42,518 bases of DNA from a virus, in the IMG/VR virus record IMGVR_UViG_3300023082_000019, positions 1 through 42,518 of that record; one strand, given 5' to 3'. Below the pieces are notes generated by a model. It did not search any database. It saw only the letters and a list, made by a program, of their open reading frames with translations, and had not been told where the DNA came from. Shown here in pieces: positions 8,476-18,394 of this stretch. Every line of letters starts with the position of its first letter. Position 1 is the first letter of the stretch. Made by a program: the position numbers and the translations under genes.

Positions 8476-8610
8476 GCTTTAGACGACGTTAATGGCCGTG
8501 TGATATACAGCACGCCATATTGGATCACATCCCGTTTCTGCGCTTTTCGTCAAATTGGAGACAAAAAAAAAGAACCCGCCCCACCGACCAGGCGACTTGG
8601 GTTCTTTTTC
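8476..8610 (+). ncRNA. Possible short non-coding transcript with internal hairpin
   Basis: Between the motif at 8459 and the terminator at 8567-8609 there is no credible gene. A hairpin is visible at 8492-8518: ATGGC, a bulged C and GTG pair with CAC and GCCAT around a 10-base loop. A short RNA of about 130 nt is the simplest reading, but the promoter is inferred from the motif only. Confidence 0.3.
8563..8609. terminator. Bidirectional intrinsic terminator
   Basis: AAAAAGAACCC (8567-8577) pairs with GGGTTCTTTTT (8599-8609). Nine A precede the stem on the plus strand, giving T9 for leftward transcripts, and five T follow it for rightward ones. Confidence 0.85.
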
Positions 8611-8907
8611 CACAACTTATGAATACATTCAAGCGGATAGCCATTAGCAGGCTGTGTCGCTATGAGCACTATGGCAATGCCATAAACCTTGGATCAATAA
8701 GCTTTCCTTGCTTTCCCGGTTTCCATAGGATTCACGGGGGTCCAACGTGTTCATAGCCCGACTATACCATACGCAACGCGCGTTAACACGTTCGCGCCTT
8801 TGCGTCACTCCCACGCTTTCAACTGACCAGCCCTGCGGCTGCGTTGGCCTGTACGCGTCTTTTGCTCCACGCAACCCGCTCAAAGCACCCACACATGGAG
8901 GTGCTTT
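8610..8907. promoter_or_regulatory. Non-coding control region upstream of the replication gene
   Basis: About 300 bp without a convincing gene. It holds a small perfect palindrome TATGGCAATGCCATA (8670-8684) and a leftward promoter candidate TGTTAA (8788-8783), N16, TATAGT (8766-8761). The first GCGCG operator module is at 8775-8798. The leftward promoter would place its start at an ATG (8754), giving a leaderless 36-codon frame that ends before the terminator. Its C-terminal half (LWHCHSAHSDTAC) does not look like protein, so a non-coding RNA is as likely. Confidence 0.45.
8775..8798. promoter_or_regulatory. GCGCG operator module 1, upstream of the replication operon
   Basis: AACGCGCGTT (8775-8784, a perfect palindrome) is followed by AACACGTTCGCGCC. 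The same AACGCGCGTTA and CGTTCGCGCCTTTG strings occur in module 2 at 10970. It overlaps the leftward promoter candidate and precedes the gene at 8908, so it could be a two-way switch. Confidence 0.6.
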
Positions 8908-9915
8908 ATGAGCATCGTTCGCGCTGCAAGAAAATCTCAGTTCTACATGCTCCCGGCCTCGGTTATCGAGGACAAACGTCTGTCGTGGGCGGGGCGGGGC
9001 ATGCTGGTCTATCTGCTGAGCAAGCCGGACCACTGGCGCGTCCAGATCAAAGACCTGATCAACCAGACCAAAGAGGCGATCGGGGGGCGTTCGGGCCGCG
9101 ACAAGGTCTACAAGCTGATCAATGAACTGCGCGCTGCAGGATATCTGTACCAGGAGTTCACACGAGAGGGCGGCACCTTCCGGGGCGTTGAATACGAAGT
9201 CTCCGAAACCCCCGACCTTGAGCAGGCGGCGCGTTATGTGGCCAGCCTGGCAGTCAAATCCGAGGAACGTGGCCAGCCCGATCTGGAGCTACCGTTTCCG
9301 GAATTGCCGGAAACGGTCACACCGGATACGGCAACGCCGGTTCCGGCAAACCCGGAAACATTAGATAAGACTGAAAGAGCATTCCAGATTGAAAAAGCAG
9401 AAAAGAATACGGTTGCTCAGCTGGTGCCTGTCGAGCTGGGTGCTGACTCGATTGAAGGGCTGACTGCAGGGCAGCCGGACGACTACCCGGCCAATCCGTC
9501 GGGCAAGACCCATGATGCCTGGCAGGTCTACGCCGTCGCGTACCACATCCGTCACAAGGAATGGCCGGTCTACAACAAAACCGTAGGCAGCCTGATGGGC
9601 AAGATCGTTGACCGGATCGGCGCCAAGGCTCCACTGGCGGCTCAGTACTACGTCCGCAAAGAGAACGCCCACCAGATCGTCACCAGCTGCCACCCGCTCT
9701 CCGTTCTGCTCAAGGATTGCGAGGCCTATGCCACCAAATCCATCAAGGCCCGTCGTGTTGAGCTCAACGAGTCGCGCGCCCACCGCCCGGCGCCGGTCAT
9801 CGTCGATATCCCTTCGCAGTTCATCGCCCCCAAAACCCCCAAGGTTCCGTCAGCTGCTGCCAGTGCTGGCCTTGCCTCCCTGCGCGGTCGTAAAGCGCAA
9901 GGGGCATCAGCATGA
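8908..9915 (+). CDS. Phage replication initiator (helix-turn-helix, lambda O-like role)
   Basis: 335 residues with a strong GGAGGTG ribosome site. The N-terminal 95 residues (FYMLPASVIEDKRLSWAGRG, then YKLINELRAAGYLYQ) form a winged-helix domain common in phage replication proteins. A Pro-rich linker follows (about 125-155), encoded by five 15-bp DNA repeats. The C-terminal half (about 195-285) contains THDAWQVYAVAYHIRHKEWP and may be the helicase-loader contact. It probably binds the origin and recruits the host helicase. The gene carries its own putative origin, as lambda O does. It overlaps the next gene by four bases. Confidence 0.75.
   Translation: MSIVRAARKSQFYMLPASVIEDKRLSWAGRGMLVYLLSKPDHWRVQIKDLINQTKEAIGGRSGRDKVYKLINELRAAGYLYQEFTREGGTFRGVEYEVSETPDLEQAARYVASLAVKSEERGQPDLELPFPELPETVTPDTATPVPANPETLDKTERAFQIEKAEKNTVAQLVPVELGADSIEGLTAGQPDDYPANPSGKTHDAWQVYAVAYHIRHKEWPVYNKTVGSLMGKIVDRIGAKAPLAAQYYVRKENAHQIVTSCHPLSVLLKDCEAYATKSIKARRVELNESRAHRPAPVIVDIPSQFIAPKTPKVPSAAASAGLASLRGRKAQGASA
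9292..9412. other. Putative replication origin inside the initiator gene
   Basis: Five CCG-led repeats start at 9292, 9307, 9322, 9337 and 9352, exactly 15 bp apart: CCGTTTCCGG, CCGGAAACGG, CCGGATACGG, CCGGTTCCGG, CCGGAAACAT. The first two form a perfect inverted repeat (9292-9316). A purine-rich, AT-rich tract follows at 9361-9412. Iterons within the initiator gene followed by an easily melted purine-rich stretch is the arrangement of lambda ori. The 15-bp period also corresponds to a five-residue protein repeat, so the DNA role is inferred. Confidence 0.5.
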
Positions 9916-10319
9916 TCGCCGGCCGACACAAGACCAAGCCCGAGGAACAGTGGTGGCACGACGTGGGCGATATCTGTGGGTGCATCTGCTGCCTGCTCGA
10001 TGGCAAGCCGAGAGACTTCACATTGCCGGCGCACGTCTCGATTCACCACTGCGACGGCCGTACCAAAGCCCATGCCCATTACTTCGTGCTGCCGCTCTGT
10101 GAGGGTCATCACCAGCAAGGCACAGGCGAGAACAAGGCATTGCTGGCGGTTCACGGGAACAAGGCCCTGTTCATTGCCGAGTACGGCCGTGAAATCGAGC
10201 TGGTCGACAACTGCGTGTCGCTTGTGGAGGCGGCCGGCCGCACCGTGCCTGGCGGCGTATACGCTCTGCTGGCCAAGTGGGCAGCGCACCGCCAATACCT
10301 GGAAGCGCAAGCATGCTGA
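9912..10319 (+). CDS. Ref-like RecA-dependent nuclease
   Basis: 135 residues. The block HVSIHHCDGRTKAHAHYFVL, then PLCEGHHQ, with clustered His and Cys, is the signature of the phage P1 Ref family. These are HNH-type enzymes that cut DNA within RecA-formed displacement loops. An early CGCICC motif may bind zinc. In this phage it sits between the initiator and dUTPase genes and is coupled to both neighbours by overlaps. It suggests RecA-assisted processing of replication or recombination intermediates. Confidence 0.75.
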   Translation: MIAGRHKTKPEEQWWHDVGDICGCICCLLDGKPRDFTLPAHVSIHHCDGRTKAHAHYFVLPLCEGHHQQGTGENKALLAVHGNKALFIAEYGREIELVDNCVSLVEAAGRTVPGGVYALLAKWAAHRQYLEAQAC

Positions 10320-10519
10320 GCGACGAGAGCACGTCAAAAGCGAGCACCAAGGCCTGCAGGGGCTGCGGGAATCGCGATTTGATCCTGTTGAAGTCGTTGA
10401 GCCGCAAGCAGTGCCCTGACTGTCGCCGAGTGATCGAGTGGAAGCTCGACACCGATCAATCCCCCCTCAATGGCTCGCACCGTGCTGGCCGCCTGAAACT
10501 GGAGCAAACGAAAGCATGA
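10313..10519 (+). CDS. Small zinc-ribbon protein
   Basis: 68 residues from ATG 10313, seven bases inside the end of the ref-like gene. Two CxxC pairs (CRGCGN and CPDCRR), about 16 residues apart, form a single zinc ribbon. The basic spacing suggests nucleic-acid or protein binding. Its stop overlaps the dUTPase start as ATGA. Confidence 0.65.
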   Translation: MLSDESTSKASTKACRGCGNRDLILLKSLSRKQCPDCRRVIEWKLDTDQSPLNGSHRAGRLKLEQTKA

Positions 10520-10965
10520 ACCTTCTACGCATTGGCGAGCATGACTTGCCGCGCCCGTCCCGCCGTTACCCGACGGATCTGGGTATTGACGTACGCACGG
10601 CCGTGGCCAAGACGCTACAGCCTGGCGAGCGCTTTCGGTTCCCGACGGGTTTCGCCTATGAGTGGCCGCGTCAGCTTGGCGTGCAGGTATGGCCGCGCAG
10701 CGGGCTTGCGGACAAGCACGGTATCGACGTGCTGGCGGGGCTGGTTGATCCCTCTTACCGGGGTGAACTGCAGGTGATCCTAATCAACCACGGCCAGGAA
10801 CCTGTGGAGCTGGATGTCGGCGATCGCATTGCTCAGATAGTGCTGACACGCATCGAGCTGGCTTACCAACTACCGACCATGGACGAGCACTTTACAGAGG
10901 TCGAATCCTTTGAAACCGAGACGGTGCGTGGCTCTCAGGGGTTTGGCTCAAGCGGAAAGAATTAA
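10516..10965 (+). CDS. dut: dUTP diphosphatase, trimeric type
   Basis: 149 residues, the usual length. All five motifs are visible: I, DLGIDVRTA (21-29); II, PRSGLA (60-65); III, GLVDPSYRGE (75-84) with Asp79 and Tyr81; IV, GDRIAQIVL (102-110); V, RGSQGFGSSG (138-147). It hydrolyses dUTP to dUMP and pyrophosphate, keeping uracil out of phage DNA and supplying dUMP. The start ATG 10516 overlaps the upstream stop. It is the last gene of the replication operon; a new promoter module begins 5 bp after it. Confidence 0.95.
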   Translation: MNLLRIGEHDLPRPSRRYPTDLGIDVRTAVAKTLQPGERFRFPTGFAYEWPRQLGVQVWPRSGLADKHGIDVLAGLVDPSYRGELQVILINHGQEPVELDVGDRIAQIVLTRIELAYQLPTMDEHFTEVESFETETVRGSQGFGSSGKN

Positions 10966-10969
10966 CCGA

Positions 10970-11027
10970 AACGCGCGTTAGCGCGAACGCGCGTAAACAG
11001 GTTGGCGCGTTCGCGCCTTTGTGCAAT
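10970..11027 (+). promoter_or_regulatory. GCGCG operator-promoter module 2
   Basis: Two palindromic elements, GCGCGAACGCGC (10981-10992) and GGCGCGTTCGCGCC (11004-11017), follow AACGCGCGTT (10970-10979). TTGGCG (11002-11007) is a plausible -35 box and TGCAAT/AATCAT near 11022-11030 a weak -10. The inner palindrome falls in the promoter spacer, so a bound repressor would block polymerase. Confidence 0.6.
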
Positions 11028-11039
11028 CATTGCCGGGCA

Positions 11040-11051
11040 AATCAGCCAGAG
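11040..11051 (+). promoter_or_regulatory. Leader site complementary to the small RNA (target 1)
   Basis: ATCAGCCAGA at 11041-11050 ends nine bases before ATG 11060. Its AGAG end is the only Shine-Dalgarno-like sequence for that start, so pairing would cover the ribosome site. Confidence 0.5.
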
Positions 11052-11059
11052 TTATCGAT

Positions 11060-11416
11060 ATGCCCAACCTTCCGATTGTTTTCAGTCCTATGAGCGCCAA
11101 GTTTTTGGCCGACAGGATGCGTTTTCTGGGGAATGCCGACCTGTTGGCAGACACCTACGAATTCAACCCGCCCGAGGGGTTCAACGCTGAATCCTGGGCG
11201 GATGCCGCACAGGCGATGACCGAAGCGCTACAGACCGGCAAGGCCATCGAGCCCACGGCCTGCAATGTGGAGCTGCTGGTGGAATCGCTCGAGGGAAATC
11301 GCTTGATCGGGCTTTGTGCCGCGAACAAGCGCACGGGATTGACTGAGGTGGCCAACCTGATTGCCAGACGGCTTGAGGCGTATGTCGGGCGCCCGGTTCG
11401 GCCGGAGCTCACCTGA
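11060..11416 (+). CDS. Hypothetical protein, first gene of the module 2 operon
   Basis: 118 residues from ATG 11060, chosen over 11021 because the promoter and leader motif lie between them. The protein is mixed alpha/beta without recognised domains (LADRMRFLGNADLLADTYEF; C-terminal helix VANLIARRLEAYVG). It heads a run of coupled genes reaching 12705. TGATG coupling links it to the next gene. Confidence 0.65.
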   Translation: MPNLPIVFSPMSAKFLADRMRFLGNADLLADTYEFNPPEGFNAESWADAAQAMTEALQTGKAIEPTACNVELLVESLEGNRLIGLCAANKRTGLTEVANLIARRLEAYVGRPVRPELT

Positions 11417-11715
11417 TGGGGATTCTTGATGGCGATATCGCGCTGGGAAGTGCGGCCATCGATACCCCGATCGGCACGATGCTGTTCACCGTCAGTTCCA
11501 CGTCCAGCGTGTTGGCTGGGGAGGATGGGCGGAATTTTGTAGCGGTCGCTCACCACCCGGAATCTGGAGTGATGACGGTCGGTAAAAGCGGGAATGAGAA
11601 GGGCGCAGAAGGCTACCGCCGAGCTTGCGCGAATGCTGCCGAATCGTTGTGGTGGAGCATGCAGGAAAACACGAAATTCAAACGGATGCTCGAGGCTACA
11701 CGCTATGAAGAATGA
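11416..11715 (+). CDS. Hypothetical protein
   Basis: 99 residues, coupled by TGATG to the gene before and overlapping the next by 11 bases. Strand-rich N-terminus (IGTMLFTVSSTSSVLAG), then a basic helix with two adjacent Trp (SLWWSMQENTKFKRML). No family is recognised. Confidence 0.6.
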   Translation: MGILDGDIALGSAAIDTPIGTMLFTVSSTSSVLAGEDGRNFVAVAHHPESGVMTVGKSGNEKGAEGYRRACANAAESLWWSMQENTKFKRMLEATRYEE

Positions 11716-12349
11716 AGGAATCGACTGGGTCAGGGTGATGCGTGACCCCGAGCGTTTTGCCTTGGAGGTGGTGACCGTCGACGGTGACCAGTACATGAGG
11801 CTTGAGCACCTCCGAACGGGGCTCAAAGTCTCCATTGTGGTGGGCCTTCTTTGCGAGCAGACCCGGCTGTCGTACGAGAAAACGCTGTGTGATCAGCTGG
11901 CGTTCAAGTTCACGGACGCCAAACTGCTCGAGCACGGCAAACACCCGTTCGCCTGCCAAGTTCGTTGCGTCTACGCCAATCAGCTGCTCGAAGTGATCGC
12001 CAAACACGGGCGCCGTTTCTTCTACTGCCCTAAGACCGAACGGGTGGCGCGCCTGGTGTACGACACCAAGGTGCACCTGATCGATGCCAAGACGGGCACC
12101 AAAATCGTATTGCGCAACAACGGGAGTTGGACGGGTTTCAGCCACGGCGGAACCCTGCGCGAGCTGGTGACGATGATGCGTGACTACGTGACGAAGGGTA
12201 CCCGCATCGGGATGCACTTCATTGGCATGGAGCGCACTTTCGGCGACGGCAATATCTGGGGCTATCCCGCTGATGCCCTGCAGGCGTGCCGTGAGGCTGC
12301 GAGCCTACTGCCCATCACCACACCCCACGAAAAGGAGCGCGCAGCGTGA
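11705..12349 (+). CDS. Hypothetical protein, 214 residues
   Basis: Starts at ATG 11705 inside the previous gene. No domain is recognised. The visible traits are a mostly beta N-terminal half with paired aromatic residues (GRRFFYCPKTERVARLVYDT), a Gly-rich turn (GSWTGFSHGG) and a final helical segment. Length and steady codon use support a real gene. GTGA coupling leads into the VVA0879-type gene. Confidence 0.65.
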   Translation: MKNEGIDWVRVMRDPERFALEVVTVDGDQYMRLEHLRTGLKVSIVVGLLCEQTRLSYEKTLCDQLAFKFTDAKLLEHGKHPFACQVRCVYANQLLEVIAKHGRRFFYCPKTERVARLVYDTKVHLIDAKTGTKIVLRNNGSWTGFSHGGTLRELVTMMRDYVTKGTRIGMHFIGMERTFGDGNIWGYPADALQACREAASLLPITTPHEKERAA

Positions 12350-12705
12350 ACGGCCGTCGTGAAATTTCCCTCGAGCAGTTCCAGGCCGAGTACCTGGCAC
12401 AAGCCCCCGATCGCGAAGACGTGGTGTTTGTCTGCCCTCAGTGCAAAACGCTGCAGAGCGGTCGCGACTTCATCAACGCCGGCGTGGGCGATGAAATGGA
12501 TGATCTGGAGTTCCGCCTGGGCGTCTCGTGCCTTGGCCGCTACGTGAAAGGGGCGGGCTGTGACCTGACCTTGGGCGGCCTGGACGTGCACACCTTGTCG
12601 ATCGTCCTCCCGGACCATTCAACGGTTGCGCACTTTGAGCTGGCCAGCCCCGAAGCGGCCGCCGAGCACCGAGCGCTCCAAGCGGCGAAAGCCCTGGAAC
12701 AGTAA
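12346..12705 (+). CDS. VVA0879-type phage protein
   Basis: 119 residues, GTG start overlapping the upstream stop (GTGA). The pattern FVCPQCK at about 28-34, a short spacer, then GVSCLGRYV (about 59-67) matches the small VVA0879 family carried by many phages, with Cys residues likely binding zinc. No biochemical role is established for the family. It is the last gene of its run; a strong hairpin follows. Confidence 0.65.
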
Positions 12706-12712
12706 TTCTCAC

Positions 12713-12741
12713 CGCACGCTGGCGCCGATCGCCGGCGTGCG
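12713..12741. other. Strong hairpin between operons
   Basis: CGCACGC (12713-12719) pairs with GCGTGCG (12735-12741), continued inward by TGGCG/CGCCG with one wobble, around a CCGAT loop. No T-run follows, so it is an RNA processing or attenuation structure, or an operator for the Arc-type gene just downstream, rather than a plain terminator. Confidence 0.5.
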
Positions 12742-12770
12742 TAAACCAAATTTGTACAGGATGTTTTCCG

Positions 12771-13067
12771 ATGACCCAGAAAAATAACGCCCCTTCGCGC
12801 ACTGCTGACAAATTCGTGATGCGCCTGCCTGACGGTATGCGTCCGAGGGTCGAGGAACTGGCCAAGCTGGAACATCGCTCGATGAACAGTTTCATCATTG
12901 CAGCGGTTGAAGAAAAGATCGGCCGGGGCGAGCGCCAGGAGCTGCTGTTGAATGCGCTGCAGCTGGCGCTTAAAGGCGAGTTGCGCAATTCCGACGCGGC
13001 TCAATCCGTTGATCGCATCCTGGAGAAGCTGAAACAGGCGCTGCCAGCCTCCAAGGTGCTGCAATGA
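12771..13067 (+). CDS. Arc-family ribbon-helix-helix DNA-binding protein
   Basis: 98 residues. The N-terminal half reads [20 protein letters not shown] then [16 protein letters not shown], the beta strand and two helices of Arc/MetJ-type repressors. The C-terminal helix (about 52-95) may carry oligomerisation. Such proteins bind short operator repeats as dimers of dimers, so this is a candidate reader of one of the repeat families in this genome. It overlaps the next gene by four bases. Confidence 0.85.
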
Positions 13068-13486
13068 CGACAGAGCAGTTCATCAGGGATGCCGCGGCCC
13101 GTGGGTGGTCGCGGGCTCAGACCGGTGCCGCGCTGCAGATTTCAATGGGCAAGATGCGATTGATCCTTGAGCTGCTGCCGGATGTGGTGTGGCCGGCGCC
13201 GAACAAATCGATGCTGACCCGCCAAGCCCGTGAAGCGGCCCGCGGCCATTGCTCGCCTGCGCAACGTTCGCACCTGGCAGATATGCGGCGCCGGCAAACA
13301 CGCACCACCTATGAGGTAGGTGGGCGCACTGGCACGCTCACAGAGCTGGCAGCCTTCGCGCCGGTGCCTATCTGTACGATCCGGCGCCGCTTGAGCAAGG
13401 GCATGCCGCGTGAACTGGCATTCACCCTGCCGCCGATCCCGGCACAGCTGCGCCGCCAGGCTAAAACACTGGGTATCAGCGTATGA
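13064..13486 (+). CDS. Putative helix-turn-helix regulator
   Basis: 140 residues. Two HTH-like stretches are visible: [18 protein letters not shown] near the start (about 10-27), and a second around [20 protein letters not shown] (about 87-106) where a basic recognition helix ends in RRRL. Both fit homeodomain-like or resolvase-type DNA binding. It is coupled to the Arc gene upstream and the ASCH gene downstream (ATGA). Confidence 0.6.
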
Positions 13487-13896
13487 AGGCCCTGAGCATT
13501 CGTCAGCCGTGGGCGTGGCTGATCATCCATAGCCCGGATTTCAAGGACATTGAAAACCGCACCTGGCACACCAAGTTTCGGGGCCGATTCCTTGTACATG
13601 CCTCCGCTGGCATGACTCGCAAAGAATGGGGTGAGGCTTACCAGTTCTGTCTGGAGTCGGGTGCGATGAACCCCCCTTTCGACCTCCCTGAATACGACCA
13701 GCTGCAGCGTGGCGGCATCATCGGATCCGTCGAGCTGGTCGACAGCCTCGATACGAGCGACTCGCCCTGGTACATGGGGCAGAAAGGTTTTCTGCTGCGT
13801 GATCCCAAGCCGTTGCCCTTTACCCCCTACAAGGGGCAGCTGGGTTTCTTTGAAGTAGATCCCCAGGCGCTGGGGCTGGATGTGGCCAATGTCTGA
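13483..13896 (+). CDS. ASCH domain protein
   Basis: 137 residues with the classic opening LSIRQPWAWLII, then KDIENRTW, FRGRFLVHAS, and GGIIGSVELVD. ASCH domains bind RNA or small modified nucleotides; some members are N4-acetylcytidine hydrolases or RNases. Its catalytic or binding pocket cannot be judged by eye. The final residues overlap the start of the DUF2786 gene. Confidence 0.85.
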   Translation: MKALSIRQPWAWLIIHSPDFKDIENRTWHTKFRGRFLVHASAGMTRKEWGEAYQFCLESGAMNPPFDLPEYDQLQRGGIIGSVELVDSLDTSDSPWYMGQKGFLLRDPKPLPFTPYKGQLGFFEVDPQALGLDVANV

Positions 13897-14686
13897 ATTC
13901 GACCCTAAAGAGCTTGAGCGGATCATCCGCAAGATCAAGCATTGCCTGGCGCTGTCCCAGAGCGCCAACGAGCACGAAGCGGCGACCGCGATGCGCCAGG
14001 CTCAAAGCCTGATGCAGAAGTACCGTCTGACTGAGCTGGACGTGCACCTGAGCGATATCGGCAAGTCCGAGGCAGAGAAGGCCGCGGCCACTCGCCCGGC
14101 ATGGGAAAAGGATCTGGCGGGGCTGGTGGCGTCTGCCTTTGGCTGCAGGTCGTTCACCTTTCGCAATTGGTGCAGCAAGCGTCTGCTGGTGCTCGAGCGA
14201 TCTGTATTCGTCGGAGTGAGCCCCTCGCACGAAATCGCCAAGTACGCCTATGACACGCTGCTGACCAAGGTGACGTTCGCGCGCAAGCAGTTCATGGCCG
14301 ACATCCGTGCCGGGCGTGTGCGGCCCGCCAAGTACAGCGCCGAAACCCGTGGTAACCACTTCGCCCTGGCGTGGGTGTCGGCCGTGCATCACAAGCTTGA
14401 GGCGCTGGTGCCTGAGACGGACGAACTGACCCCGAGTGAAAGCCAGGCACTGATCGTTTCTCAGACTCAGGAAAACGCCTTGATCGATCAGTTCATGCAC
14501 CAGCTCACCAACGGCGCGGGCGTGGGGAAATCGCGCGCGGGCAAGATGGCCAAGCCTAATACGTCGGATCTGCTGGCGGGCTTTCAGGCGGGCGGTGAAG
14601 TCGAACTGAATCATGGGGTGGGTACCGCCACTGCTCAGCCGTTGGCGATTGGCCGCGGGGCACCAGAGCAGGGGAGTTTCCTGTAA
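13889..14686 (+). CDS. DUF2786 domain protein
   Basis: 265 residues from ATG 13889. The N-terminal segment (IIRKIKHCLALSQSANEHEA then AMRQAQSLMQKYRLTELD) is the DUF2786 signature found in phage and bacterial proteins of unknown function. A middle region has VGVSPSHEIAKYAYDTLL and a basic stretch. It is the last gene before module 3. It may be a DNA-associated scaffold, but nothing proves it. Confidence 0.75.
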   Translation: MSEFDPKELERIIRKIKHCLALSQSANEHEAATAMRQAQSLMQKYRLTELDVHLSDIGKSEAEKAAATRPAWEKDLAGLVASAFGCRSFTFRNWCSKRLLVLERSVFVGVSPSHEIAKYAYDTLLTKVTFARKQFMADIRAGRVRPAKYSAETRGNHFALAWVSAVHHKLEALVPETDELTPSESQALIVSQTQENALIDQFMHQLTNGAGVGKSRAGKMAKPNTSDLLAGFQAGGEVELNHGVGTATAQPLAIGRGAPEQGSFL

Positions 14687-14744
14687 GAGCCCGTAAACAG
14701 GCCCTTTCGGCGGTATTTGGCTGGGTCATAATACGCAACACAAA

Positions 14745-14802
14745 GGCGCGAACGCGCGTACGCACTAAAACAGGTTTGCGCGTACGCGCGTTCATGTATG
14801 AT
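14745..14802 (+). promoter_or_regulatory. GCGCG operator-promoter module 3
   Basis: The elements are GGCGCGAACGCGCG (14745-14758) and a perfect palindrome GCGCGTACGCGC (14778-14789). TTTGCG (14775-14780), 16 bp and TATGAT (14797-14802) form a credible promoter with the palindrome in its spacer. Confidence 0.7.
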
Positions 14803-14811
14803 GATTCGGCA

Positions 14812-14823
14812 ATCAGCCAGATA
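14812..14823 (+). promoter_or_regulatory. Leader site complementary to the small RNA (target 2)
   Basis: ATCAGCCAGATA is a 12-base exact complement of 6096-6107 in the small RNA. It lies between the promoter and the AGGAAG ribosome site of the leader peptide at 14837. Confidence 0.5.
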
Positions 14824-14836
14824 CAGGAAGCACCCC

Positions 14837-14890
14837 ATGTACACAGATATTTGCAGTCCGGCCGCCAGCGCCGGAAAGGGGGCGCGATGA
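14837..14890 (+). CDS. 17-residue leader peptide
   Basis: ATG 14837 has AGGAAG seven bases upstream and encodes MYTDICSPAASAGKGAR. Its stop overlaps the start of the 300-residue gene as ATGA (14887-14890), and that gene has no strong ribosome site other than GGGGGCG. Translation of the larger protein therefore probably depends on this leader, which is also where small RNA pairing would act. Confidence 0.55.
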   Translation: MYTDICSPAASAGKGAR

Positions 14891-15789
14891 ACGCCGCCGA
14901 AAAGCCGACCCGGCACGACTTCAACTTTTCCATGGGCGCAGAGAGCAAGCGCAAGCTGGATGACTTGATGTCGCGCTGTGGACACAACCAATTGAACCTG
15001 ACCGTCGCTCGTGCGCTGGCGCTGTTAGCGTGGGTGGAGGATCAAAGCGATTTGGGCCGCGTGGTGGGGAGCATTCGCTACGGCGACGAGCTGGACTTTG
15101 TCGAGCTTGAAGAACGCGCCGAGCTGTTGCGCCCGCGTCCGCGTCCTCACCTGGTGCCGGCCGTTGCGCCGATCGCCGAAGTGGTCGCTCCGATCGAGCC
15201 AGAGCCCGTCCCGGCGCCGGAACCCACCCCGCAACCTGAGCCAGCCCCAGCCCCAGAGCCTGCGCCTGTCGAGCCAGCCCCATTGACGGCAACGACCAAT
15301 CCGAAGCTGATGGCCCGGCCCAGGGTGGCACCCGCCCCGAGCGCGCCGCCTCGTGAGCGTTCGCGCCGCATGATGAAGCATGACGCCTACGAGCAAGACG
15401 ATAACGGCCCAATCAAAACGCTCAAGTACCTGCAAGCCAACTGCAAGGCCCGCGGCTGGCCACAACCGGTTGCATACGGCGCTCACTGCATGCCGGGCAA
15501 CCTGTACAAGCACCACGAGCAGCGCCTGAAAGAAATCATGGACAACCACCCCACGGCTACGCACTTCCGCATCGCGTTGCTTACCGAGGATCTGGCTTTT
15601 TGTTCGTACTCGCCCCAAAAGGGCTGGTGCGAATACGACGAGTCATCGGGTCGGTGGATCAAAGACATGAACCTGCACCACGGTACGTCCTGGATATATC
15701 CAGTGATCCACGCCGCCGAGTACCTACGCCGGTTTGGGAAAGAATCCCCGAACCCTCCGCAATATGACGATTCCTGCCCGAACTTCTAA
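14887..15789 (+). CDS. Two-domain hypothetical protein with Pro/Glu/Ala linker
   Basis: 300 residues from ATG 14887. The N-terminus (about 1-75) includes SMGAESKRKLDDLMSRCG, like a ribbon-helix-helix or coiled regulator. A repetitive linker (about 100-145) repeats EPxPAPEP. The C-terminal domain (about 165-300) is rich in aromatic, His and Cys residues (KARGWPQPVAYGAHCMPGNL; THFRIALLTEDLAFCSYSP). No family is recognised. Translation appears coupled to the leader peptide. Confidence 0.65.
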   Translation: MNAAEKPTRHDFNFSMGAESKRKLDDLMSRCGHNQLNLTVARALALLAWVEDQSDLGRVVGSIRYGDELDFVELEERAELLRPRPRPHLVPAVAPIAEVVAPIEPEPVPAPEPTPQPEPAPAPEPAPVEPAPLTATTNPKLMARPRVAPAPSAPPRERSRRMMKHDAYEQDDNGPIKTLKYLQANCKARGWPQPVAYGAHCMPGNLYKHHEQRLKEIMDNHPTATHFRIALLTEDLAFCSYSPQKGWCEYDESSGRWIKDMNLHHGTSWIYPVIHAAEYLRRFGKESPNPPQYDDSCPNF

Positions 15790-15791
15790 CC

Positions 15792-16097
15792 ATGACCAAC
15801 ACACAGAAAGCACTCACAGCAAAAGAGCAGCAATTCATTGAAGAAATGGAGCGCGTGCGCGGTATCGAATTCGCCCGGATCGGCATGCAGGTCGAAATGG
15901 CCGGCGATATCGGCACGATAACGGGCACCAGAAACGGAAACCTGATGGTGGCCTTCGCAAACCAGACCGCGCGCGGCGCCAAGCCTCGCAACGTCCACCC
16001 AACCTGGCGCATGAAGTACTTCGATGCTGCAGGCGTGGTCATTGCCGAGTTCAACGACAAAGGCTGCGTGTTCCGTCCAGAGAGGGCTACAGCATGA
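15792..16097 (+). CDS. Small SH3/KOW-like hypothetical protein
   Basis: 101 residues, two bases after the previous stop. The stretch GMQVEMAGDIGTITGTRNGN followed by LMVAF resembles a KOW or SH3-type barrel strand pair that often binds RNA or ribosomal partners. The assignment is weak. It overlaps the next gene by four bases (ATGA). Confidence 0.55.
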   Translation: MTNTQKALTAKEQQFIEEMERVRGIEFARIGMQVEMAGDIGTITGTRNGNLMVAFANQTARGAKPRNVHPTWRMKYFDAAGVVIAEFNDKGCVFRPERATA

Positions 16098-16597
16098 AGC
16101 ACGTACAGCGTTACACCGTGCACCCGCACCAGATGGCCAGTCACAGTGAAGGCCAGCCCCTCGGTACCGAAGATATTCCCGTGGTGCGAGCTGGGGACTT
16201 TGATCGGATCGTTGAACGGCTGATGTCCCGCGAAGCAATGCTGGCCGAGTTGCTATTCGCCCGGCCGTTACTGGTGCACGGTCCACTATGGATTGAGCGC
16301 ATCGAAGGTGTGCTGGCGGACAGTGAGCCTGCGCACTGGTCACCCGTTGAGTCGGGCTTGCCCCCTGAGGGTATTCGAGTGATCGCCGCATGCGGTACTC
16401 ACGTCCTGGGCGATTGCTTCATTGGTCAAGACACCAGCGCCAAGCTTGACCCTTTGGTCGACAAACCCTTTTCCAGCCAGCAGCTGCTCAAGTGCTGGCG
16501 TTACTGCGCCAGTCGCGAGCCGGTACCGGCGAATCTGCAGCCCACGGCCTACCGACCGTTGCCAGTCGCCCCAGTGTTCGGAGTGAAAGCCCAATGA
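16094..16597 (+). CDS. Hypothetical protein with DUF551-like segment
   Basis: 167 residues. The middle reads HWSPVESGLPPEGIRVIAAC and later CWRYC, similar to the WxxVxxxLP...V...W layout of DUF551, a common phage accessory domain of unknown role. The first 70 residues are helical and may be an added module. ATGA coupling links it to the gene at 16594. Confidence 0.55.
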   Translation: MKHVQRYTVHPHQMASHSEGQPLGTEDIPVVRAGDFDRIVERLMSREAMLAELLFARPLLVHGPLWIERIEGVLADSEPAHWSPVESGLPPEGIRVIAACGTHVLGDCFIGQDTSAKLDPLVDKPFSSQQLLKCWRYCASREPVPANLQPTAYRPLPVAPVFGVKAQ

Positions 16598-17424
16598 GCG
16601 CCAACACAGAAGAATGGACCGTCGACACCCTGAAAATCCACGTCGAGAAGGAGTTAAGCCGGGTGCTGGGCAAGGCCTGGTCGCCGTACTGCAGTATCAA
16701 TTCGCTCGTGGGTGAGCTGGAAGCCAAGCTTATCGCCACGCCTGTGCCGCCTGTGGGTGGGGAGGTTGAAGTGGTTGTTTATGCGTGCGGCCCTGAAAAT
16801 CAGCGCCAGTACGTGCAGCCAGATAACGCTTTTTACGACTGGTACTCACAGGGTGCGGTGCCACTGGTAGACCGCGCCCACGTCACCCGGCTACAGGCTG
16901 AGGTGGAACACCTGACCGTTAAATCAGCGTCTCTGGAAATGGTCCGTCATTTCTGCAAGATGAACCAGTCGGCAATTGAACAGGCCGGGCACGAAACTAT
17001 CGATGGCTTAGCAGCTGAGCGTGATCAGCTGCAATCCAAGCTGGCCGAGCTGCAAGAGCTGCTGATAGAGGCGCGCAACGTGGTGAGGTCGACGGCTGTC
17101 CTGTTGCCAGATAGTTCGTTCGCCCCGTTTAAAACCAAAGTCGATAAGGTATTGCTGCACTTGCCGTCACCCGCGGTCGATCGGATTGCGGGCTGCGCCG
17201 ATGCCGCTTGGCTGCTATACGACCGCAGGCTGTACGGCCAGCACGGCCTTCTGGTGATGGACGTGGCCACGATATTCAGCAAAGCCACTTCCTACGCTGG
17301 TTACAAAGCGCCCGAGGTGTTCTGCAAGCCTTGCGCAGGCTACGGCACTGTCAGTACGGGCATCACCGAATCCCCCACGACAATCTGCGATCCGTGCAAC
17401 GGCACAGGCAAGGTGCAGCCATGA
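16594..17424 (+). CDS. Coiled-coil protein with DnaJ-like zinc motifs
   Basis: 276 residues from ATG 16594. The N-terminal 80 residues are globular. Residues about 105-165 form a long heptad-like helix (AERDQLQSKLAELQELLIEA). The end carries CKPCAGYG and CDPCNGTG, two CxxCxGxG units as in the DnaJ zinc-binding region. This suggests a metal-binding chaperone-like or adaptor protein. It is common in such phages as a mosaic, but I know of no assigned role. ATGA coupling to the next gene. Confidence 0.6.
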   Translation: MSANTEEWTVDTLKIHVEKELSRVLGKAWSPYCSINSLVGELEAKLIATPVPPVGGEVEVVVYACGPENQRQYVQPDNAFYDWYSQGAVPLVDRAHVTRLQAEVEHLTVKSASLEMVRHFCKMNQSAIEQAGHETIDGLAAERDQLQSKLAELQELLIEARNVVRSTAVLLPDSSFAPFKTKVDKVLLHLPSPAVDRIAGCADAAWLLYDRRLYGQHGLLVMDVATIFSKATSYAGYKAPEVFCKPCAGYGTVSTGITESPTTICDPCNGTGKVQP

Positions 17425-17771
17425 TTAATCCTGATGCTACATCGATCGACGATCTGTTCCTGAGCGGCGACGGGATCTGCGCTCTATGCGGTAACGCTCA
17501 CGTCATCGTGACCAATGACCCGGTAGACCGCGATCCGGACACTGAGCCTTGCCCTTTGTGCATTCAGGAAGGCCGCCTATCAGGTGCCGGCGAGCATCTG
17601 TACAACGATCACACCCTTGAGCAGCTCAAGGAGCTGTCCAAGGTGATCGAATTCGCTGACCAAATCCAAATCAGTGGGCGGTCCGACAAGGTCACCGCAC
17701 TGCTGACCTGTGCCACCGCTGTGCCTGACCTGCTGGCGCGCATTGAATACCTGGAGCGTAAAAATGGATGA
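17421..17771 (+). CDS. Zinc-binding hypothetical protein, paralogue pair member A
   Basis: 116 residues. Two CxxC pairs (CALCGN and CPLCIQ) in the N-terminal half suggest a zinc site. The C-terminus TALLTCATAVPDLLARIEYL closely matches GALMLIAAAVPDLVKRIEEF in the next gene, so the two share a duplicated C-terminal module. The start overlaps the previous stop and the end overlaps the next gene by eight bases. Confidence 0.6.
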   Translation: MINPDATSIDDLFLSGDGICALCGNAHVIVTNDPVDRDPDTEPCPLCIQEGRLSGAGEHLYNDHTLEQLKELSKVIEFADQIQISGRSDKVTALLTCATAVPDLLARIEYLERKNG

Positions 17772-18291
17772 AATGACCCCCGACGGGCCTGGCGATGGCG
17801 ATAGCAAGTTGGTGCAGCTGATCGAGCTGGCGATTGAAGCGCTGCTGATGACCCCGCGGGCCAAGGTGCCCGGCGATCCATCAATGAGCATGCGTCAGTT
17901 GTCGATCGAGCTGCGTAAAAAGCTGTTGCCGGAAGTTGTCGAGCTGGAAGCGCTGCAAACCGCTGTGATCAGTATCAACGAGGTGCTGGCGGATCAGGAA
18001 TGGCCCCTCACACCGGGTGCAGGCCTTGGCGATCAGCTGGAGACGTGCATTCATGCCCTGCAGGGCAAGCTTGAGTTTGTACGCCAGACCTTCGACCCGC
18101 TGGGGCCTGTTCGCACCTACGGGCAAGAGCCGTTGCACCACATCAAGGATCTGGCGCTTGAGGTGCAGGACGTGACTGGCATTATCTGCGGTGGCCACCC
18201 ACGCAAAGTGGGGGCGCTGATGCTGATCGCGGCCGCGGTGCCTGACCTGGTTAAGCGGATTGAGGAATTCGAGCAAGCGCGGATGCAGTAG
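17764..18291 (+). CDS. Hypothetical protein, paralogue pair member B
   Basis: 175 residues, mostly helical, without the zinc half of its neighbour. It shares the AVPDL-RIE C-terminal module with the gene at 17421. It ends exactly where promoter module 4 begins. The function is unknown. Confidence 0.6.
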   Translation: MDEMTPDGPGDGDSKLVQLIELAIEALLMTPRAKVPGDPSMSMRQLSIELRKKLLPEVVELEALQTAVISINEVLADQEWPLTPGAGLGDQLETCIHALQGKLEFVRQTFDPLGPVRTYGQEPLHHIKDLALEVQDVTGIICGGHPRKVGALMLIAAAVPDLVKRIEEFEQARMQ

Positions 18292-18341
18292 CGCGAACGC
18301 ACGAAAGCACGTTGGCGCGTACGCGCGTTCGCGCCTATACT
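18291..18341 (+). promoter_or_regulatory. GCGCG operator-promoter module 4
   Basis: GCGCGAACGCACG (18291-18303) is followed by GCGCGTACGCGC (18315-18326, perfect palindrome) and GCGTTCGCGCC. TTGGCG (18312-18317), 18 bp and TATACT (18336-18341) make the clearest promoter of the four. The leader that follows contains an inverted repeat GAAGGCC/GGCCTTC (18343-18370) and a CAGCCA that matches only part of the small RNA seed. Confidence 0.7.
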
Positions 18342-18394
18342 GAGAAGGCCAGCCACCCCGGCCAGGCCTTCCAGTAACTCAGCAGGACGCACAC

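Follow-up and report, generated by a model that had tools for sequence, protein, structure and literature searches.

Tandem 8-bp box arrays as likely operators of a predicted RHH repressor in the early region of Pseudomonas phage-plasmids

The locus and its relatives

The window, which is the whole 42.5-kb virus record analysed here, is probably part of a larger element. Its early region contains a CI/Rep-like repressor gene, a replication-initiation-like gene and the gene of a 300-residue protein at 14887, in addition to four repeat modules and their associated promoters (Table 1). The closest annotated relative is pKF715C, a 94.7-kb plasmid of Pseudomonas putida that encodes a terminase small subunit, ParA and RepA; it was the sole match of a near-identity search among plasmids, and the corresponding search among phages gave no match. 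Further relatives comprise an 81-kb plasmid of P. atacamensis, an 81-kb plasmid of P. fluorescens and some dozen IMG/VR contigs between 40 and 89 kb long. As the relatives are plasmids together with IMG/VR contigs, and as pKF715C combines a terminase small subunit with ParA and RepA, we term the family phage-plasmids. Inside the phage-plasmid pKF715C, the segment L081 33857-43408 holds a Tn3-family transposase together with a mercury resistance operon.

The sequence GGCGCGWWCGCGCGWWCG is present in 69 IMG/VR stretches, among which related early proteins are found only in those of this phage family, the others being unrelated. We sorted the relatives by the ribbon sequence of their 14887 orthologues into group I (six phages, the window included), group II (five) and group III (five).

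Table 1. Features of the early region and related sites in the window
Feature	Position	Strand	Structure or relation	Basis
TGTACGCGGATA, six perfect copies	7867 (-), 8460, 23570, 31631, 31694, 39102			
CI/Rep-like phage repressor gene, 159 aa	7980..8459	+		structure matches, weak PHROG matches
Putative ~190-nt RNA	8563..8754	-	ends at conserved terminator	prediction only
Reverse extended -10 TGGTATAGT	8761..8769	-	module 1 overlies its -35 region	conserved
Module 1	8775..8806		four 8-bp boxes AACGCGCG TTAACACG TTCGCGCC TTTGCGTC	sequence, matrix, conservation
Replication-initiation-like gene	8908..9915	+	downstream of module 1	
Module 2	10970..11025		seven contiguous 8-bp boxes	sequence, conservation, matrix
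Module 2 promoter TTGGCG-17-AATCAT	11002..11030	+	covered by boxes 5-7	conserved in relatives
First gene of module 2 operon	11060-11416			
Module 3	14743..14798		seven contiguous 8-bp boxes	sequence, conservation, matrix
Module 3 promoter TTTGCG-16-TATGAT	14775..14802	+	covered by boxes 5-7	
Candidate repressor gene, 300 aa	14887..15789	+	first full gene after module 3	
Module 4	18288..18335		six contiguous 8-bp boxes	sequence, conservation, matrix
Module 4 promoter TTGGCG-18-TATACT	18312..18341	+	spacer wholly inside boxes	

Each module is a continuous array of 8-bp boxes

Perfect GCGCGWWCGCGC sites occur in the window only at 10981, 11005, 14746, 14778, 18315 and 18323, six in total; Markov models of order 2-4 fitted to the window after removal of the modules expect 0.12-0.13. 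A pattern search allowing up to one mismatch gave 24 matches in the window, above every one of 100 shuffles. The palindromes are thus real and not a product of chance, in agreement with the preliminary description of this locus, which had the four modules share them; however, GCGCGAACGCGCG is exact in modules 2 and 3 only, module 4 has GCGCGAACGCACG at its place, and module 1 contains no perfect 12-mer.

The same description had taken the repeats for paired palindromes with a second site upstream. Instead, each module consists of one continuous tandem array of contiguous 8-bp boxes of the form RYRYNWWN, mostly GCGCGWWC. Module 2 reads in frame GCGCGTTA GCGCGAAC GCGCGTAA ACAGGTTG GCGCGTTC GCGCCTTT GTGCAATC, and modules 1, 3 and 4 read alike. 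For all dyads of at most two mismatches, taken from the window together with the related group I sequences, 82 of the 83 spacings of at most 48 bp are multiples of 8 (8, 16, 24, 32 or 40 bp), a count that overstates independence since the 12-mer overlaps itself by 4 and two of the loci counted, L078 and L083, overlap on a single contig. The spacings of 24 and 32 bp between non-overlapping dyads are not explained by self-overlap, and autocorrelation is strongest at lag 8.

With a matrix trained on relatives only, the four modules are the sole matches in the window; their scores (better strand per module) run from 25.7 to 37.0, and the null maximum is 11.0. In pKF715C, L076 and L078 all four modules occupy the same junctions, as modules 1-3 also do in L077/L093 and L082. 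Across the relatives the number of boxes and their exact bases vary, whereas position and phase are constant.

The arrays overlie the promoters of modules 2-4

The -35 and -10 hexamers that had been named for modules 3 and 4 are present as described, and module 2 has such a pair too. At these three modules both hexamers are kept in relatives and the boxes overlie the -35 and the spacer. The earlier picture of a forward promoter heading an operon fails at module 1, where the conserved promoter is a reverse one. A consensus promoter scan selects module 4 alone; for modules 2 and 3 the case for a promoter comes from conservation.

The transcripts of modules 2 and 3 would start with a conserved GGC(A)AATCAGCCAGA (11033-11055 and 14805-14825), which could form a small hairpin; CAGCCAGA is also found 3' of module 5 in pKF715C. 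The module 4 transcript would start with a GAAGGCC...GGCCTTC hairpin (18344-18376), of which pKF715C has a stronger form, GCGAAGGCCCCG...CGGGGCCTTCGC. A 17-codon leader frame (14838-14890) lies before the 14887 gene, its end overlapping the start codon of the latter (ATGA); pKF715C has a similar leader, and a short leader precedes the operon in group II.

Module 1 and a putative antisense RNA

The core of module 1 is near-invariant in the six group I phages. A forward promoter within it was rejected, as TTAACA is conserved but a forward -10 is not. The reverse promoter would yield a putative antisense RNA of ~190 nt opposite the leader of the 8908 replication gene. This RNA is predicted to be structured, with a conserved extended -10 and a bidirectional terminator, and a shorter version is found in group II phages too. 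Rfam matched no RNA family in the window. The forward promoter of the 8908 gene is probably near 8510, and its Shine-Dalgarno sits in a conserved AGCACC...GGTGCT hairpin (8882-8905), which suggests translational control of 8908.

The 14887 protein has a predicted RHH domain

The 14887 protein is composed of a predicted ribbon-helix-helix (RHH) domain (residues 9-55), a Pro-rich linker and a C-terminal domain without library match. An orthologue was found in every relative examined, a set biased toward the presence of this protein because most of its members were collected with an alignment of the protein itself. In the AlphaFold2 model, which is of moderate quality (pLDDT averages 70 and reaches 90 at no residue), the first 56 residues contain an extended segment at residues 9-16, to which the monomer gives no strand assignment, followed by two helices at residues 18-31 and 36-55. 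Its top VIA-align matches are all RHH proteins, namely NikR, CopASO, RelB and ParD, with NikR at a Z of 5.8 and an RMSD of 1.6 Å over 47 residues, a score within the range (<8) where common arrangements score too. Foldseek alone gave no match to the model at E<=0.001.

Profile recognition of the protein as RHH, Arc or CopG was negative in Pfam, PHROGs, NCBIfam and PDB sequences, as was hhalign of its N-terminus against an Arc alignment; the Arc domain PF03869, found in the 12771 protein, was not found in 14887. Small RHH domains can escape profile searches. Since the sequence profiles do not name the 14887 protein, we describe its N-terminus as predicted RHH-like, at moderate strength, and not as an established member of the fold. 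Superposition on NikR places residues 11, 13 and 15 on NikR residues 3, 5 and 7, which contact DNA, with residue 13 on Thr5. Altogether, the 14887 protein is the best candidate for the regulator that would bind the arrays and repress the operons behind them, ahead of the three proteins proposed in the preliminary description.

Box sequence covaries with a ribbon residue in three clades

Group I combines the ribbon RHDFNF[ST]M with the boxes GCGCGWWC. Group II has RH[DE][IV][ML]F[ST]M, with the core TAATGACRCATTA and the boxes GCGCTTTT and RTGTAATT; group III has R[HQ][DE]I[VIT]F[ST]M, with boxes such as CGCTATTGTGAT and RTGTCATT. Despite these differing box sequences, the best period is 8 in all three clades, and an array, always of 8-bp period, precedes the RHH gene or its short operon in 16 of 16 phages. 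Searches with the group patterns yielded three modules in each group III record and one or two in each of group II, and reversed control patterns found zero modules in the same records. Because the array stands before the RHH gene or its operon in all 16 phages, and because in four group II phages the clade pattern matches only before the RHH operon, the comparison points to autoregulation as the common function of the arrays.

Residue 13 of the 14887 family is Asn in group I, Met or Leu in group II, and Val, Ile or Thr in group III. It is one of 3 positions, out of 48 in alignment A3, that separate all three clades; when L079, which lies outside A3, is added by inspection, the separating positions reduce to 13 and 48. 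Box sequence thereby covaries with the ribbon residue predicted to contact DNA, which we take as support and not as proof of recognition by this protein, since clade structure confounds the comparison and phylogeny could explain the pattern. If the proposed control is real, the three clades offer a natural experiment on the joint change of specificity of an RHH protein and its operator at a fixed box length.

Other candidate regulators and readings

Complete or longer group I relatives hold extra arrays, which lie before a gene for a Cys-rich 145-residue protein, near a gene of ~220-250 residues, before the module 6 gene for a 91-residue protein (a neighbour of parA in two phages) and, in one phage, before parA itself. 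As group I arrays precede parA and the 91-aa gene, the partition-linked operons probably belong to the regulon. The same placement would suit a different regulator, the 91-aa protein, for which the arrays could serve as operators and centromere at once, much as omega of pSM19035 acts on arrays at three promoters (PMC9499535). We rank this protein as the strongest rival because each of the five other group I phages has it and none of the group II and III records searched does. That distribution also tells against it, as group II and III phages carry 8-bp arrays at the module 3 position and the 91-aa protein was not detected in them; moreover, it has no library match, and pKF715C has a ParA/RHH-type partition pair elsewhere, with different direct repeats in its intergenic regions. 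Overall, we consider it unlikely that the arrays are sites of the 91-aa protein. The ParA/RHH genes of pKF715C are flanked by short direct repeats of AGCTACC/GATACC type (L081 19650-20060 and 21160-21470), which are probably the centromere.

The 7980 protein, one of the three regulators put forward earlier, is kept in every relative whose locus covers it, and its model (pLDDT 65) resembles the repressors PaaR2 (Z 6.0) and SPC32H Rep (Z 5.9), in line with a CI-type phage repressor. However, its gene is flanked by a different 12-mer, TGTACGCGGATA, which shifts gradually along with it, and although the protein is 68% identical to that of the window in L082 and 62% in L079, group I boxes are found in L082 and not in L079. 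Binding of the 7980 protein to the modules is thus very unlikely; its more probable targets are the separate TGTACGCGGATA sites, which are likely an operator or promoter element tied to this repressor. Their placement is conserved in relatives, with pairs 62-63 bp and 22 bp apart, and their counterpart is TGTACGGGGATA in L079 and TGTCCGGGGATA in L080. The nick motif WACTRTGAC of a wheat phage (PMC11780129) matches neither repeat.

It is highly improbable that the second earlier candidate, the Arc-type 12771 protein, is the repressor, even with its clear Arc domain, a gene within the module 2 operon and homologues in L082 and L078: no array lies directly before its gene, and PF03869 was not detected in two array-carrying group I records, G001 (51 kb) and the 81-kb G002, or in the group II and III records searched. 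The third, the XRE-like 18749 protein, is found in only one relative, which speaks against it as regulator. Finally, GCGC and CGCG are common methylase targets and some relatives encode a cytosine methyltransferase, but it is extremely unlikely that the repeats serve methylation, packaging or recombination and play no part in transcription, as the window arrays are few and lie only before operons or over promoters, isolated GCGC sites elsewhere form no arrays, and position and phase stay fixed while box number and sequence vary.

A proposed autoregulatory circuit

We propose, with a probability of roughly two in three, that the four modules are 8-bp-box operators of the autoregulated RHH repressor encoded at 14887-15789, through which it controls the early operons. 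The module 3 promoter would drive an operon whose first full gene encodes this repressor. Dimers of 14887 would fill adjacent boxes side by side, and the constant 8-bp phasing suggests that they do so cooperatively. By covering the -35 and the spacer, the bound protein would keep RNA polymerase from the promoters of modules 2-4, among them its own at module 3. At module 1 the protein would lie over the upstream portion of the reverse promoter for the putative antisense RNA and probably block that promoter too. The outcome would be a negative-feedback circuit that coordinates the early operons and, in complete relatives, the partition-linked operons too. The earlier proposal of one repressor acting by steric block and cooperative binding fits the coverage of -35 and spacer, the conserved junctions and the constant phase, with the amendment that the upstream site is not a separate one.

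A wider reading, which we put forward tentatively and hold somewhat less probable than its opposite, is that 14887 represents an undescribed RHH family with a C-terminal domain of its own, whose circuit spans the phage-plasmid, joins early operons, an antisense RNA for replication control and partition genes, and has acquired three specificities via residue 13 while keeping the 8-bp box. Our literature search found no description of regulation in this Pseudomonas phage-plasmid family. The circuit would be the first regulatory map for a family that lives as phage and as plasmid, one member of which carries mercury resistance, and would place lytic-side and plasmid-side operons under a single repressor.

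Comparison with known repressor-operator systems

NikR and AmrZ join an RHH domain to a C-terminal domain, as the 14887 protein is predicted to do, and NikR is its best structural match. However, their C-terminal domain is unrelated to that of 14887 in every search run, and we know of no tandem octamer arrays in either system. Arc of phage P22 is a small phage RHH autorepressor of early genes, with a comparable ribbon pattern, QFNLRW against DFNFSM here; it uses a single 21-bp operator, and no profile similarity between Arc and 14887 was found.

MetJ of E. coli is an RHH repressor that binds cooperatively to tandem 8-bp met boxes over promoters and regulates its own gene. The modules share with MetJ operators the tandem 8-bp boxes, their constant phase and their position over promoters, and the 14887 protein shares the RHH domain by prediction. 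They differ in the box sequence, the phage-plasmid setting, the linker and C-terminal domain and the lack of a known corepressor, and searches of Pfam, NCBIfam and PDB sequences gave no match of 14887 to MetJ. Omega (ParB) of pSM19035 is an RHH protein that acts on contiguous short repeats overlapping several backbone promoters, its own included (PMC9499535). Its repeats are 7-bp heptads that double as the partition centromere, compared to a period of 8 here, and its gene lies beside parA, whereas the 14887 orthologues are early-region genes, set apart from parA in pKF715C. By the tests run, the 14887 protein is a member of neither the MetJ nor the omega family. The candidate repressor and its boxes are undescribed, and their layout, which resembles that of known plasmid and phage repressors, most likely lets one small-fold repressor shut down its own operon and several early operons jointly.
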